From IMG/VR virus record IMGVR_UViG_3300045747_000093, positions 1-43,465 of that record: a stretch of 43,465 nucleotides of DNA, one strand, 5' to 3'. Source of the DNA: a virus. This document shows positions 4,400-43,465 of the stretch, piece after piece; positions within the stretch are counted from its first letter, which is position 1, and the number at the start of each line of letters is the position of its first letter. A program made the translations under genes and the position numbers. The notes beneath the pieces were generated by a model. The model saw only the letters and a program-made list of their open reading frames with translations. It was not told where the DNA came from and did no database searches.

Positions 4400-6505
4400 T
4401 TAATATTTTTTAGTTATGTTTTCACTTAATTTGTTTAATATTGTTTCTACTCTATGCACCTCTCTACACATAACACTTGGTTGAGACTTATAAAAACTAC
4501 CCTTCTTCTTTACGTACCACGTACGATCCTTCACCACTTGTTTACCGTCTATGTTACCCTTAATGCGATCAAGCTTATTATCAGCATCCCAACGAACCCA
4601 CCCGTTGTTTTCTAACCAGAGTGTTATTTCGTTGATAGAGTACTTGTTGCCAGTTGGTAATACTGTAGCTAATAGTTTGGGCCGTGCTACTTCATAGTCT
4701 GCTAATAAATCTTCCAATGCTATCTCTTCGTCTGAGCGGGTCATTGCGAACATATCTTCAAAGTATGTAGTTCTGAATGGGCGAGTGTTTGGTGAAAACT
4801 TAGAGAGGTCATATTTTAAGAGGTAGTCAAACAGGAAGTTAGGTCCACCACACTTGCGCCACCCCTCGTGGTAGTCTGCTTTCTGTTGAACAGTCATAAC
4901 ATTAGGGGCCCTCACCACAAATGCTCTACGGTCATTAGCTGATAGTGACATTGCATTAAGGTTGTTTGTTATCACCAATACATTACATATATTACGTTGA
5001 AATACCTTCTTACCACCCTTAATGTTGAGCATCTGCATATCAGATGACTCGGTTGCTGTTATACGTTTATAATACTCTAATGCTTCTCCATATAATCCAG
5101 CAGCTTCAGAGATGTGTAATAATTTAGTCTCATATATGCCGTCATCAAACTTATCCTTAATGTCCTTGTTGCCTATAGGTTTAAATGCCGATCCTAGTAT
5201 GGTTGCTATTGGCTGAAACAGCGAGTCTTTACCAGCATCCTCTATACCCAAGATTATCGGTTGCCAGTTACACTTAAGCTGGGGCTGTTGTATGGTGAAT
5301 GCAACCCACCAGAGTAGTGCCTCGGCGTAGTCTGGCTCGGGCACCACATGGTGTAATAAGTCTAGCCATGGGTCTATGGGGCCAGGTTCTGGGGTGATGT
5401 TAAAACCACGCCATGTGTTGAGTAAGAGGCGGTTACCGTCCTGTATAGTACGTAGTTGTTGACCATGTGGCATAGGGAACCAGGTGTAGTCTGCCGCTTC
5501 ATTAAAGCCCTCTTGCATAGATAACCATTTTGTTATTAATGGTTTACCTTTCGTACCAGGAAATTGCCTTAGATAAGATGTGTTAATAGAGTTAGTTGAT
5601 GCAGGAATACTGATATTAAAGTCATACCATTCGTTTGTTCTTATCACATGGTATATGTTATGTATATGCTCATCGTACTTCTCTGACTCTTTGTTAGATA
5701 TAGAGTCTATTATTCCCTGTAGCTCTCTGGTCTCTAATGGCGGATGGGTATGTAGTTGGTTGAACACTACCAGTTTTGCTATAGCCTCGGCTTTAGACTG
5801 GGTAGTTGCCAAATAATGACCGAGTAGTTGTGTCAACTCAGTATTACGGGAACCATCGTGTATATCATCTGGTGGAGTATAATTGTCTGGTTTGGGTGTT
5901 TTGTCTGGCTTTAATAATGTTATAAGTTGGTCGTAAGAATACTTTAATTCTGGATTCCAAGTTGTGAGTTTTACTTTAGGCTTACCAGTTTCGGTTTGGT
6001 GTTCTGGCTTCTCATTAATACCAAAGGGTAGGCGTACCAGACGTACCATGCCGTTAAGGCCTGTGTCTGAATAAGGAGACTTTGATAATAGCTTGATTAT
6101 TGTTTTTGCTCTGGATGGGTTTTCTTCTGGGGTTTGTAGGATGTACCCCCATTGATAGTTGTTAGGGCTGGTCTCTATTACGTACGATGGGGTGAGGGGT
6201 GGTGGTGTTGCTTTTGTATTAACATCATCACATACCAAAACGTTGAGAGATTTAAAGTTCTCATTCTTACGGCCATCACCAATGATAGCACATATTGTAT
6301 AATAGGCTGGGAGATTAGGTGATAAGTCTGATATATGGTTTGATATAGTCTCGTACTTTGACTTACCAATGAATGGTTGTGAGTTTGGATCGGGGAATAT
6401 TGCTTGCAGGAATTCTTCTACGCTTACATGTTCGCTTGACATTGTATGTACCGGTAATATTAGATGACTACCGCTAGCCACCACCAGACGAGGATCGCCT
6501 GACAC
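4400..6505 (-). CDS. Primase-helicase (RepB-type AEP primase plus SF3-like ATPase)
   Basis: A replication-initiation enzyme of about 701 residues. Residues ~20-190 match the RepB-like archaeo-eukaryotic primase plan: a metal-binding acidic pair in LVCDDVN (~93-94), then ETSPNNYQWGYIL, then VRLVRLPFGINEKP. After a PriCT-like linker, residues ~370-620 form a helicase of the DUF5906/SF3 type with Walker A GIEDAGKDSLF (~420-429) and Walker B-like LLHISEAAG. The C-terminal ~80 residues (WLENNGWVRWDADNK) resemble a winged-helix DNA-binding module. I chose the GTG at 6505 because GAGGG lies 8 bases upstream; TTG 6565, ATG 6535 and ATG 6442 are alternatives without a Shine-Dalgarno site. It is first in the leftward operon, next to the repeat-rich region, as expected for an initiator at its origin. 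Confidence 0.88.
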   Translation of the reverse strand: MSGDPRLVVASGSHLILPVHTMSSEHVSVEEFLQAIFPDPNSQPFIGKSKYETISNHISDLSPNLPAYYTICAIIGDGRKNENFKSLNVLVCDDVNTKATPPPLTPSYVIETSPNNYQWGYILQTPEENPSRAKTIIKLLSKSPYSDTGLNGMVRLVRLPFGINEKPEHQTETGKPKVKLTTWNPELKYSYDQLITLLKPDKTPKPDNYTPPDDIHDGSRNTELTQLLGHYLATTQSKAEAIAKLVVFNQLHTHPPLETRELQGIIDSISNKESEKYDEHIHNIYHVIRTNEWYDFNISIPASTNSINTSYLRQFPGTKGKPLITKWLSMQEGFNEAADYTWFPMPHGQQLRTIQDGNRLLLNTWRGFNITPEPGPIDPWLDLLHHVVPEPDYAEALLWWVAFTIQQPQLKCNWQPIILGIEDAGKDSLFQPIATILGSAFKPIGNKDIKDKFDDGIYETKLLHISEAAGLYGEALEYYKRITATESSDMQMLNIKGGKKVFQRNICNVLVITNNLNAMSLSANDRRAFVVRAPNVMTVQQKADYHEGWRKCGGPNFLFDYLLKYDLSKFSPNTRPFRTTYFEDMFAMTRSDEEIALEDLLADYEVARPKLLATVLPTGNKYSINEITLWLENNGWVRWDADNKLDRIKGNIDGKQVVKDRTWYVKKKGSFYKSQPSVMCREVHRVETILNKLSENITKKY

Positions 6506-6577
6506 TAATGCGCCCTCAGAGGCTGGTACAGGCATGAGGGCTAATATAGAGTGCGGTGGTCTCAAATATCGTGAATT

Positions 6578-6586
6578 ATTATATCA
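6578..6586 (-). promoter_or_regulatory. Leftward early promoter, extended -10
   Basis: On the minus strand this is TGATATAAT, a perfect TGnTATAAT element. There is no good -35 at 17 bp (TATCAT), as is usual for extended -10 promoters. The predicted start near 6571 leaves a leader of about 65 nt before the GTG of the primase-helicase gene. It forms one arm of an 11-bp inverted repeat with the rightward copy at 6600-6610. Confidence 0.7.
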
Positions 6587-6601
6587 TAGAATTTTAAAAT
6601 A

Positions 6602-6610
6602 TGATATAAT
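6602..6610 (+). promoter_or_regulatory. Rightward promoter, extended -10
   Basis: TGATATAAT on the plus strand mirrors the leftward promoter. ATTATATCATA (6578-6588) and TATGATATAAT (6600-6610) are exact inverted arms around an 11-bp AT-only spacer apart from one G. A transcript from here would run through the hairpin array into the small terminase candidate at 7131, or could prime replication. Confidence 0.6.
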
Positions 6611-6656
6611 TTTATGAAAATAAATTGTTTTTATAGTTATAGTTAAAACTGAATAG

Positions 6657-6807
6657 AATGAAACTTGAGTTTCATTTGAAATATATCTTTGAGGATATAT
6701 TTGAAAGTAATAACTACTCAAATGAATCCCGGGGATTCATTTTAAATATATCTTTGAGGATATATTTAAAGTAATAACCACCAAATATGAACCCGGATTC
6801 ATATTTG
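6657..6807. repeat. Array of five hairpins in repeated units
   Basis: Five perfect stems in 150 bp: AATGAAACT/AGTTTCATT (6657-6676); AAATATATC-TTTGAG-GATATATTT (6679-6702); AAATGAATCCC/GGGATTCATTT (6720-6742); the same TTTGAG-loop hairpin with arms extended to 12 bp (6741-6770); and CAAATATGAA/TTCATATTTG (6782-6807). The TTTGAG hairpin core of 24 bases is repeated exactly. Related spacers (GTAATAACTACT, GTAATAACCACC, GTGATAATGTACCACC) follow the second, fourth and fifth hairpins, so the region is built from about 65-bp units. Confidence 0.8.
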
Positions 6808-6820
6808 AAAGTGATAATGT

Positions 6821-6859
6821 ACCACCAAAATACCACCAAAATACCACCAAAATACCACC
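6821..6859. repeat. 11-bp direct repeat, 3.5 copies
   Basis: ACCACCAAAAT occurs at 6821-6831, 6832-6842 and 6843-6853, then ACCACC at 6854-6859. A period of 11 puts each copy on nearly the same face of the helix, as in iterons or an operator array. The sequence immediately to the right carries GTGGT motifs complementary to ACCAC, so the two could also fold together. Confidence 0.75.
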
Positions 6860-6867
6860 TTATCAGT

Positions 6868-7097
6868 GGTACCGAGTGGTACCGGCGGTGGTACCAAGAG
6901 TGGTCCCAGAGAATTGGTTCGTAAGTTATTGATTTTCTTATATTTATTATATACTAGTACCAATAGTACCAGTTATATTGAAAAATCTGAGAAGAAGAAA
7001 AAAAATTGTATATCGGTTAGAGAAAAAAAACTGGTACCATGGTACTAGTTTTCTAAGATATTGATTTATAACGAGAATTTCAGTTAGGTCTGGTACC
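6868..7097. repeat. Cluster of GGTACC palindromes
   Basis: GGTACC occurs at 6868, 6878, 6890, 7033 and 7092, with variants GGTCCC (6902), AGTACC (6956, 6965) and GGTACT (7041). Five exact copies in 230 bp is a local excess; I noticed only about fifteen elsewhere. The first three are spaced 10 and 12 bp. They could be operator sites for a dimeric regulator. Confidence 0.5.
7027..7052. promoter_or_regulatory. 26-bp operator-like palindrome
   Basis: AAAACTGGTACCATGGTACTAGTTTT is read as two half-sites, AAAACTGGTACCA and TGGTACTAGTTTT, which are reverse complements apart from one base pair. It lies about 80 bp before the small terminase candidate, in line with other GGTACC sites. Perfect dyads of this size are usually bound by dimeric repressors. 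Confidence 0.5.
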
Positions 7098-7130
7098 AGT
7101 CTATTTTCGATCAACCTAGAGAAGCGGCGG

Positions 7131-7445
7131 ATGAACATAGAACATGCAATTAGGCAGTATGAAGCACAAATACTGTCTGAAAAAAAGGTAAAAGCAGGCC
7201 TGCGAGCTGAAGAATTAAGAGAAAAGCTAGACCCAGAATCAGCTATTGTAGGGCTATTGCAGCTTGGTGAGGAGGCAAAAACATGCGATTTGGTAGACCT
7301 GCCAAGACTGCAATTTAGAGCTACAATACTGACTACTATACTGAAGAAGTGTATGCCAGACCTTAAGGCGCTAGAGATTAGCTCCGAAAGGTCTAAGGTA
7401 AACACCCTCATTATTGACATGAGTGAAACAGATATGCTACAATAA
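7131..7445 (+). CDS. Putative terminase small subunit
   Basis: 104 residues, mainly helical. Residues ~50-85 (LPRLQFRATILTTILKKCMP then DLKALEIS) recall the stretch in small terminase-like phage proteins where a helical bundle ends in a PDLK(A/S)hEhS motif. The N-terminal half is charged coiled coil-like (YEAQILSEKKVKAGLRAEEL). A weak GAGAAG ribosome-binding site precedes the ATG. It is the first rightward gene after the control region and lies 0.9 kb before the large terminase, separated by an inverted gene. The small subunit binds the packaging site, which would fit the adjacent repeats. The assignment rests on one motif plus position. Confidence 0.5.
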   Translation: MNIEHAIRQYEAQILSEKKVKAGLRAEELREKLDPESAIVGLLQLGEEAKTCDLVDLPRLQFRATILTTILKKCMPDLKALEISSERSKVNTLIIDMSETDMLQ

Positions 7446-8039: not shown

Positions 8040-8077
8040 CTATTTATTTTCGCCTATAACAATCAATAAGTTACAAC

Positions 8078-8143
8078 TGTATATACAGTTTATACAGTTT
8101 ATACAGTTTATACAGTATATACAGTATATACAGTATATACAGT
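8078..8143. repeat. 9-bp tandem array (TATACAG units)
   Basis: TACAGT occurs seven times at exact 9-bp steps (8084, 8093, 8102, 8111, 8120, 8129, 8138), with linkers changing from TTA to ATA half-way. The first unit pairs with ACTGT at 8076-8080, giving ACTGTATATACAGT palindromes. The array sits between two divergent promoters. It could bind a multimerising regulator or be a slippage-prone microsatellite; a 9-bp period is not helically phased. Confidence 0.8.
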
Positions 8144-8303
8144 TAAAGTCATACAGCTGATGGGAGGGGGCACTGGTGGTCGAGGCAATGACAAGGCCAA
8201 GTCCCTTGTATTTTTAGGATATATAAAAAAAAAAAAAAAAAAAGGAATGTAGTTAAATAGTTAGGTAGTACCTAGATATATGAAAAAATAAATAAAATAT
8301 ATC

Positions 8304-42161: not shown

Positions 42162-42800
42162 TTAAAGTTCTTTACCGATAGGGCATAAGTGTTTTACGTA
42201 ACAGTATCGGCAGTAGTCATTCTGCCTTGGTTCAAATGTAGTGTCATGCATCAAGGTATCTACACGTTCTTGCCAGTGCTTTTTATCTTCCTCTAATGTA
42301 CTGTTATCAAACTCGTACGTATATACCTCACCGGATTTTAAATACCAGAACTCGACAGTAACTTCTGTATCATCGGTACGCATCATGTGGGTATTAGCAT
42401 ACAAACGAGCTTGGTGTTTATGCTCATCATAGTGTCTACCAGTCTTGAAGTCTACTATATAGTTATCAATCCTGGCATCTAGCTTCATACGTAGCCATGC
42501 TTCAGGGTGGTTCCAACCATCTGGGATAAACTCCCAGTCCTTGTTGAATGTTAATGCTTCTTCTGGTATAGCGCCCAACTTTTTGAGTTTGTTAAACTCG
42601 TTGGTGAACTTACTTAATACAGCTGGTAGTTCGGTTATCTTACCTAACAGATAGTTCTCTGCTACACTATGAGCCGCTAATCCCTTGATTAAGGCGTACG
42701 ACGTTTCTTCTGGTATCTTAGCGATCTTTTGGTACATGTACTTATGAGGGCATTGCTCATAAGAGCTAAGAGTTGAGTTGGACCAAGAACGTTTAATCAT
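42162..42800 (-). CDS. Cas4/RecB-like PD-(D/E)XK nuclease with Cys cluster
   Basis: 212 residues from ATG 42800, overlapping the polA stop by 8 bases. YEQCPHKYMYQKI (C17), H44 in LAAHSVAENY, D108 in KLDARID, VDFKTGRH (D117, K119) and Q130 in HKHQARLY make the nuclease site. C197, C200 and C206 (YCRYCYVKHLCPIG) with C17 form a probable iron-sulphur or zinc cluster as in Cas4/AddB nucleases. It is a likely 5'-3' exonuclease for recombination or host DNA turnover. The longer frame to 42860 adds a hydrophobic stretch from the polA coding sequence and is unlikely. Confidence 0.86.
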   Translation of the reverse strand: MIKRSWSNSTLSSYEQCPHKYMYQKIAKIPEETSYALIKGLAAHSVAENYLLGKITELPAVLSKFTNEFNKLKKLGAIPEEALTFNKDWEFIPDGWNHPEAWLRMKLDARIDNYIVDFKTGRHYDEHKHQARLYANTHMMRTDDTEVTVEFWYLKSGEVYTYEFDNSTLEEDKKHWQERVDTLMHDTTFEPRQNDYCRYCYVKHLCPIGKEL

Positions 42801-43465
42801 TGTAAGGCTCCATATCTGAAAAGTTATAGCCAATAGAGCCATCACTATGTAGTGGTACATCCCAACCCGGAATGCCCTCCATACACTCTTTTAATAGCTT
42901 CATTTCTGTCTCTACCTGATTAGGATAGCACTCTATAACCAGCTCGTCATGTACTGTCATGACCAGATCACCCTTACGATCTGGGTGGTACCAATAGCGT
43001 ACCATGCTTTCTTTGGTCATGTCGGCCGATGAGCCTTGTATCAATACATTACCAAGTTTATAGTAGAATTGCCGACCATTAACACTTGGCTCTACATCGT
43101 AGGAACGACCACCCCAGGTTCTGATCTTCTTACCAGATCGTGACAGCTTCTCTATGTCCTTCATTAATTGCTTAAACTCTGGTATGGCCTCGTCGTAGGC
43201 TTTAAAGAATGATTGAGCTGTCGATAAAGATATATTGTTGCGATCTGCCAGTTTCTGAGGCCCACCACCATATAGCTTGAGGAAGTTAATTTCTTTGACT
43301 GGTGCTCTACCCAATACTAGACCTGTCTTTTGGTAGATGATCTCATTTACGAAGCTGTGAATATCTACCTTAGGATTCTGCTGATATGCCTTGAGTATAG
43401 AACCCTCAGCATAATGTGCGGCAACACGGAGTTCTTGACCAGAGTAATCGCGTTTAGCTAAGACT
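42793..43465 (-). CDS. polA: DNA polymerase I (family A), C-terminal part, cut by the window edge
   Basis: The polymerase half of the gene at 1-1045. It enters at the window end with VLAKRDYSGQELRVAAHYAE (motif A, catalytic Asp), then LGRAPVKEINFLKLYGGGPQ (motif B; Lys and Phe at the positions of E. coli K758 and F762), and MTVHDELVIE (motif C, HD). The C-terminus GYNFSDMEPYND is usual. Seen on its own from ATG 43314 it would lack motif A, so that start is false. One unpaired base at each window end shows that 1 mod 3 bases are missing between the parts. Confidence 0.93.
   Translation of the reverse strand, partial: VLAKRDYSGQELRVAAHYAEGSILKAYQQNPKVDIHSFVNEIIYQKTGLVLGRAPVKEINFLKLYGGGPQKLADRNNISLSTAQSFFKAYDEAIPEFKQLMKDIEKLSRSGKKIRTWGGRSYDVEPSVNGRQFYYKLGNVLIQGSSADMTKESMVRYWYHPDRKGDLVMTVHDELVIECYPNQVETEMKLLKECMEGIPGWDVPLHSDGSIGYNFSDMEPYND

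Follow-up and report, generated by a model that had tools for sequence, protein, structure and literature searches.

The DNA analysed here, called the window, is a virus record of 43,465 b in which TerL and portal match podovirus-type families. Positions 1-1045 and 42793-43464, at the two ends of the record, each carry half of one DNA polymerase gene, the halves being translated separately, and the map is therefore probably circular and nearly complete, missing just a short piece. The features of the locus are given below with their coordinates, and with the strand where one is assigned; L numbers denote other contigs.

4400-6442, minus strand: primase-helicase gene, the proposed initiator, with RepB_primase, PriCT_1 and DUF5906 (SF3-type helicase) domains
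6578-6583, minus strand: candidate -10 element (TATAAT) of the primase promoter, which relatives also have at the aligned position
6657-6676: hairpin B0, perfect stem of 8 bp
6679-6702: hairpin A1, perfect stem of 9 bp, loop TTTGAG
6713-6723: iteron-like word ACTACTCAAAT in an array spacer
6720-6742: hairpin B1, perfect stem of 10 bp
6741-6770: hairpin A2, perfect stem of 12 bp, loop TTTGAG, overlapping B1 by 2 bases
6777-6786: iteron-like word ACCACCAAAT in an array spacer
6782-6807: hairpin B2, perfect stem of 10 bp
6821-6859, plus strand: 3.5 tandem 11-bp iterons ACCACCAAAAT, with ACCACC at 6821, 6832, 6843 and 6854
6866-6907, plus strand: four iterons, three of GTGGTACC and one of GTGGTCCC, at 6866, 6876, 6888 and 6900 (steps of 10, 12 and 12)
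6922-6934: IHF-consensus site 1, TAAGTTATTGATT
6935-7030: candidate unwinding region, an AT-rich segment with 72-78% A+T over 60-b windows and with iterons GTACCA at 6957 and 6966
7032-7045: palindromic iteron pair around GGTACC at 7033
7054-7066: IHF-consensus site 2, TAAGATATTGATT, 132 bp from site 1
7090-7099: iteron CTGGTACCAG
7131-7445, plus strand: 104-aa gene adjoining the module, with homologues in L014, L006 and L163
8061-8149: third IHF-consensus site (8061-8073) with about seven tandem 9-bp units (TTTATACAG/TATATACAG), upstream of TerL; candidate packaging or late-promoter site

The primase-helicase gene likely starts at the ATG at 6442 on the minus strand, and the RepB-type primase domain of its product was matched to PF16793 (E = 1.1e-6). 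The full-length protein model was poor (mean pLDDT 53.6) and was left out of the fold search; the model of the C-terminal 129 residues was confident over the core. Fold matches of this C-terminal domain were weak (best Z 3.9) and include several winged-helix DNA-binding proteins; Foldseek gave no match at E ≤ 0.001, and solved structures searched with profiles yielded no match either. The listed fold matches do not include the P4 alpha DNA-binding domain, an absence that excludes nothing. The primase mRNA leader (6440-6574, minus strand) folds better than shuffled versions of itself, and the same holds for those of L166, L167, L169 and L172 (5/5 including the window, z from -2.2 to -4.4); no sequence conservation was evident in these leaders downstream of the -10 element.

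The 104-aa product resembles a terminase small subunit by position only, and it matched nothing in Pfam or PHROG, including any terminase family. Its homologue in L014 (3777-4205) has C-terminal DVDFTSERR repeats; the DNA repeats that encode them are 27 bp long and form stems as well. Also in L014, at 5779-5853, very long perfect palindromes with stems of 18 and 30 bp lie in the AT-rich sequence preceding TerL; they could be biological or an assembly artefact.

Structure of the hairpin array

The first-pass annotation had described five perfect stems followed by 3.5 copies of an 11-bp iteron, between divergent gene blocks and beside the primase-helicase gene, as a candidate origin. The structural part of this description was reproduced in full. 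Stems of 8-12 bp lie at 6657-6807, exactly where they had been placed, the second and fourth share the core and loop AAATATATC-TTTGAG-GATATATTT, the iterons follow at 6821-6859, and the array is situated between the minus-strand start at 6442 and the plus-strand gene from 7131.

Five stems are far beyond chance. More than two stems were found in 0 of 5,000 dinucleotide shuffles of 6657-6807, the maximum was three in 2,000 shuffles of 6567-7130, and 20 shuffles of the whole window never gave more than one stem per 150-b stretch. Single-strand DNA folding of 6640-6870 gave z = -6.4 for the plus and -5.8 for the minus strand, and the same hairpins are formed by both strands.

The repeats of the array come as paired units, spaced by about 64 bp and with similarities of 94% and 72%, each consisting of two palindromes and a spacer that ends in an iteron-like word, and together they form a partial tandem duplication. 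Between the units the stem changes occur on both arms and pairing stays perfect; both arms thus change together, and stem pairing seems to have been kept. No dispersed copies of the hairpins were found in the window, and no Rfam matches in the window, L014 or L006. A dispersed mobile hairpin of the REP/MITE type found no support, no dispersed copies having been seen in the window or in related genomes. None of 12 other contigs with the stem-A palindrome has a similar array at that palindrome. A different, AT-rich hairpin cluster, with several overlapping or repeated AATATATCATAAATGATATATT palindromes, was seen around 783-806 of L178, a 101-kb contig.

The array and the iteron/IHF module among relatives

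Relatives were gathered using the primase-helicase (as a single sequence and as an alignment), TerL and the 104-aa gene as queries. Nine other contigs with a primase-helicase relative were obtained, namely L166 (the same as L014), L167-L171, L172 (the same as L006), L173 and L174; the module of L171 is the same as that of L169, which leaves eight distinct modules. None of the nine carries the array, and L166 has a single 9-bp stem at its position. Related phages with the genes and without the hairpins had been named in the first-pass annotation as evidence against its reading, and this is what was found; the hairpins were accordingly dropped as a conserved mark of the origin. The only other contig carrying the array (L005/L007/L013/L161/L165) was rejected as independent support, since its identity to the window is 100% over 12,614 b.

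The N-terminal primase domain of the window is kept in seven of the nine relatives (L166-L171 and L174), all of which lack the array, so the primase does not need the array in this family. L172 (2317-4470) and L173 (2329-4476) have the same helicase and C-terminal domain with a different N-terminal primase domain, a domain swap within the family. These counts bear on the proposal that the hairpins act like the ssi sites of RSF1010 in single-strand initiation; they would fold after the helicase has opened the duplex and let the RepB-type primase prime just 3' of each, the iterons being the duplex-binding part. The N-terminal domain does match RepB_primase, the family recognising a hairpin initiator in RSF1010 (PMC4434180, partial text), the stems vary in sequence with perfect pairing, two loops are identical and the two strands give the same hairpins. 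However, the hairpin is not kept wherever the primase is kept (7/7 without it), and RSF1010 has one site per strand as opposed to five near-palindromes here; we regard the proposal as unlikely.

The stretch that separates the module from the primase promoter varies among relatives and holds other lineage-specific repeats. This variability, together with the restriction of the array to one phage and the partial tandem duplication of ~64-bp units, would also fit a by-product, i.e. a slippage-prone or mobile repeat with no role. On the other side, perfect stems maintained through paired changes speak for selection, the window has no dispersed copies and the 12 contigs with the stem-A palindrome no similar array, and we hold a mere by-product to be rather improbable. 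Read from these comparisons, the array would be a tandemly duplicated addition private to this phage, inserted between the putative origin and the primase promoter.

The module at 6820-7100 shows the opposite distribution. Two IHF-consensus sites with phage-specific iterons were found in 9/9 relatives. They lie between the genes for the primase and the 104-aa protein except in L172 and L173, where the module is separated from the primase and is situated beyond the 104-aa gene or some distance upstream. IHF sites were defined as matches to the consensus WATCAANNNNTTR as given in PMC10380432 (partial text) and are predicted sites; the presence of IHF in the host is assumed. Strict pairs are spaced 132 bp apart in the window, 134 in L166 and L169, 147 in L174, 148 in L167, L168 and L173, and 149 in L172, while L170 has one strict site and a second that is one base off. 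Two strict sites 132-149 bp apart are therefore present in the window and in 7/8 distinct relatives tested. By chance such a pair arose in at most 1 of 200 shuffles per relative and in 0 of 100 shuffles of the window.

Iterons occur on the flanks of both IHF sites in the relatives, and an alignment of the eight modules has an invariant TAAGT.ATTGA.T box, then an iteron pair ending mostly in ACCA. In both the window and L014 the left iterons follow in steps of 10, 12 and 12, with the last iteron 22 bp from the IHF site; those of L014 (3510, 3520, 3532 and 3544) have the spacing of the window with a different word. Within the 11-bp iterons of the window, TACCAC (6820, 6831, 6842 and 6853) is the reverse complement of the GTGGTA half of the adjacent GTGGTACC sites, and because of this mirroring the 11-bp iterons seem to belong to the module as its left-most extension. 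Among 7-mers containing three or more G/C, just two reach five or more copies within 300 b in the window; both are in the module, and no other such 7-mer clusters as densely anywhere in the window.

The iteron word itself changes from phage to phage. It is GGTACC in the window, GGTTCC in L166, GGTTCCC in L169, GGTTCTC in L173 and GGTCCTC with two copies of GGTACC in L172, and GGTTCACC and GGTGAACA are the words of L167, L168, L170 and L174. Copies are largely concentrated in the module: GGTTCC in L166 occurs six times inside and once outside over 8.0 kb, GTTCCC in L169 11 times inside and once outside, and GGTTCACC in L167 three times inside and never outside. In the window, 5 of the 20 copies of GGTACC are inside the module, so the word is not confined there. 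The repeats annotated in phage P4 as 'ori type 1 repeat' have the sequence GGTGAACA or one close to it, and in L167, L168, L170 and L174 this octamer was found within the module and nowhere else in the locus examined.

Among more distant phages (L008-L012, from Vibrio and Manatee Spring, primase identity 26-29%), no GGTACC, GGTCC, GGACC or stem cluster was found near the primase. No prophage relatives were found among genome contigs, and no published description of the iteron/IHF module was among the matches listed in the literature searches.

Replication, packaging or transcription

The origin claim of the first-pass annotation held as to place and failed as to its marker: the best reading is still an origin here, but the array is present in 0/9 relatives and the iteron/IHF module in 9/9, and the iteron/IHF stretch is more likely to be the replication start than the hairpins, judging from this distribution. 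Cumulative GC skew, which had been suggested as a check, does turn in the area; because it follows the gene strand it is not independent evidence, and it was discarded as evidence for an origin. Short iterons cluster on both sides of the AT-rich segment, as P4/SaPI-type origins require, and the module is linked to an SF3-type primase-helicase gene in 9/9 relatives, at a distance in L172 and L173.

Other viral contigs were scanned for a near-ideal IHF box, TAAGTTATTGATTTT, which proved common, with at least 128 sites in at least 120 loci (L041-L160). The box alone was rejected as origin-specific, since most boxes are single and iteron-free, with 17 sites scoring ≥4 among the matches listed. DUF5906 is encoded by 6/17 viral records with an iteron-rich TAAGTTATTGATTTT and by 0/33 iteron-poor ones among the matches listed, an association outside the family with a hand-computed p of ~8e-4. 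For this comparison score-3 loci were dropped; the 33 controls were drawn from the loci that scored ≤2, of which L080 was omitted by oversight. The DUF5906 gene of L148 and L106 ends ~70 bp before the box, and several iteron-rich IHF sites outside the family are 1-2.5 kb from TerL.

The position of the module, beside the 104-aa gene and upstream of TerL, speaks against the origin reading in that it also fits a packaging site. The module would then be a packaging start (cos/pac) in the style of lambda cosB, with an IHF site between repeats bound by TerS and next to the cut site. This rival is serious because the module adjoins the 104-aa gene and TerL, as iteron-rich boxes of unrelated phages often do, and lambda cosB likewise combines IHF and repeats. 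Contig ends near the 104-aa gene or TerL in 4/10 contigs of at least 39 kb (L018/L169, L033, L170 and L173) point the same way and are only suggestive, but their distance from the module is at least ~1 kb. The presence of the P4 origin octamer in four family members, the DUF5906 association outside the family among the matches listed, the 104-aa protein without a terminase family match, and the stretch at 8061-8149 as an alternative packaging or promoter site all argue against it, and serious as it is we judge it quite unlikely.

The same elements could serve transcription control only, with the iterons, IHF sites and palindromes as operators for divergent early (primase) and late transcription. 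The region does lie between divergent blocks and upstream of the conserved primase -10 element, and TAAGTTATTGATTTT in the viral scan is often a single copy that, read by eye, precedes a promoter-like sequence. Iterons flanking an AT-rich segment together with two IHF sites 132-149 bp apart nevertheless exceed usual operators, the module lies away from the primase promoter in L172 and L173, and the half-sites of B0-B2 differ, unlike operators of one dimeric repressor. A purely transcriptional function thus appears improbable to us.

Comparison with known systems and proposed mechanism

Our favoured interpretation, which is probable on the conserved layout and on analogy, is that 6820-7100 is an iteron origin of the P4/SaPI type with predicted IHF sites, served by the primase-helicase, and that the hairpins are a private addition. 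The ori and crr of P4 are likewise made of short iteron clusters in both directions around AT-rich DNA, with the alpha primase-helicase adjacent or serving. The octamer GGTGAACA is common to P4 and to L167, L168, L170 and L174, and P4 also has a second class of ~10-bp tandem repeats. The P4 crr (cis-required region) lies just beyond the 3' end of the alpha gene. The two systems differ in that the alpha primase is of the bacterial Toprim type (PMC4234260, partial text) as against the RepB type here, in that the window has GGTACC as its own iteron, and in that no hairpin array is annotated in P4. A scan of P4 ori and crr for the strict IHF consensus found no match.

The nearest experimental parallel is SCCmec Cch2. 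In SaPI Rep and Cch2, direct repeats are bound by the C-terminal domain of the initiator helicase, and at the putative Cch2 origin deletion of the inverted repeats leaves binding intact and deletion of the direct repeats abolishes it (PMC7581432, partial text); in the window such binding is presumed. Those origins are located downstream of the helicase gene, whereas the module here is upstream, and IHF sites are not mentioned in the accessible portion of the same source.

For the hairpins, RSF1010 oriV with ssiA/ssiB offers a combination of iterons, hairpins and a RepB-type primase domain (PMC4434180, PMC4234260, partial texts), and it shows how a primase of the RepB type can work from a single-stranded hairpin (PMC4434180, partial text). 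It has three separate proteins and one hairpin per strand, compared with one fused protein and five hairpins in the window, and the window has relatives without hairpins. In pRN1 and phage BIP-1, where an archaeo-eukaryotic primase is combined with an SF3 helicase, a stem-loop is found at the replication gene, and in pRN1 it can be essential; it is one large stem-loop (~100 nt in pRN1) 3' of the gene and, in the available part of the source, without iterons (PMC4234260). The array is not of this type: its five stems measure 8-12 bp and lie 5' of the gene, and iterons accompany them. Because of the RSF1010 and pRN1 precedents, a direct role of the hairpins in initiation is possible.

Under the favoured interpretation, the primase-helicase or a partner would bind GGTACC-type iterons on both sides of the AT-rich segment, the initiator contacting them through its C-terminal domain by analogy with P4 and SaPI-type replicons. 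Bending by host IHF at two sites, 132 bp from each other, would fold the iteron clusters together; IHF helps origin opening in pSC101 and R6K (PMC5043065, partial text). The AT-rich segment would then open, the SF3-type helicase would be loaded and the RepB-type primase domain would make the first primer. We infer IHF binding, the identity of the iteron-binding protein, origin activity and any hairpin role from these likenesses. The hairpins most likely add to initiation, through iteron-like words and priming or cruciform stem-loops, or tune the primase promoter. A stronger version, which we find rather unlikely, is that two kinds of origin were fused: a P4/SaPI-like iteron module with bends at its two IHF sites, and ssi-like hairpins amplified into a cassette on which the RepB-type primase domain would start primers at many defined points; the relatives would then represent the same module without the cassette.

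The favoured interpretation points to an origin in a group of uncultured podovirus-like phages. Its layout is conserved while the iteron word changes, often at nearly all copies, which would provide a natural experiment on the co-evolution of initiator and site, and the link to the P4 octamer makes the iteron-binding protein directly testable. The private array, in turn, would make it possible to test cleanly whether an iteron origin gains anything from stem-loops.
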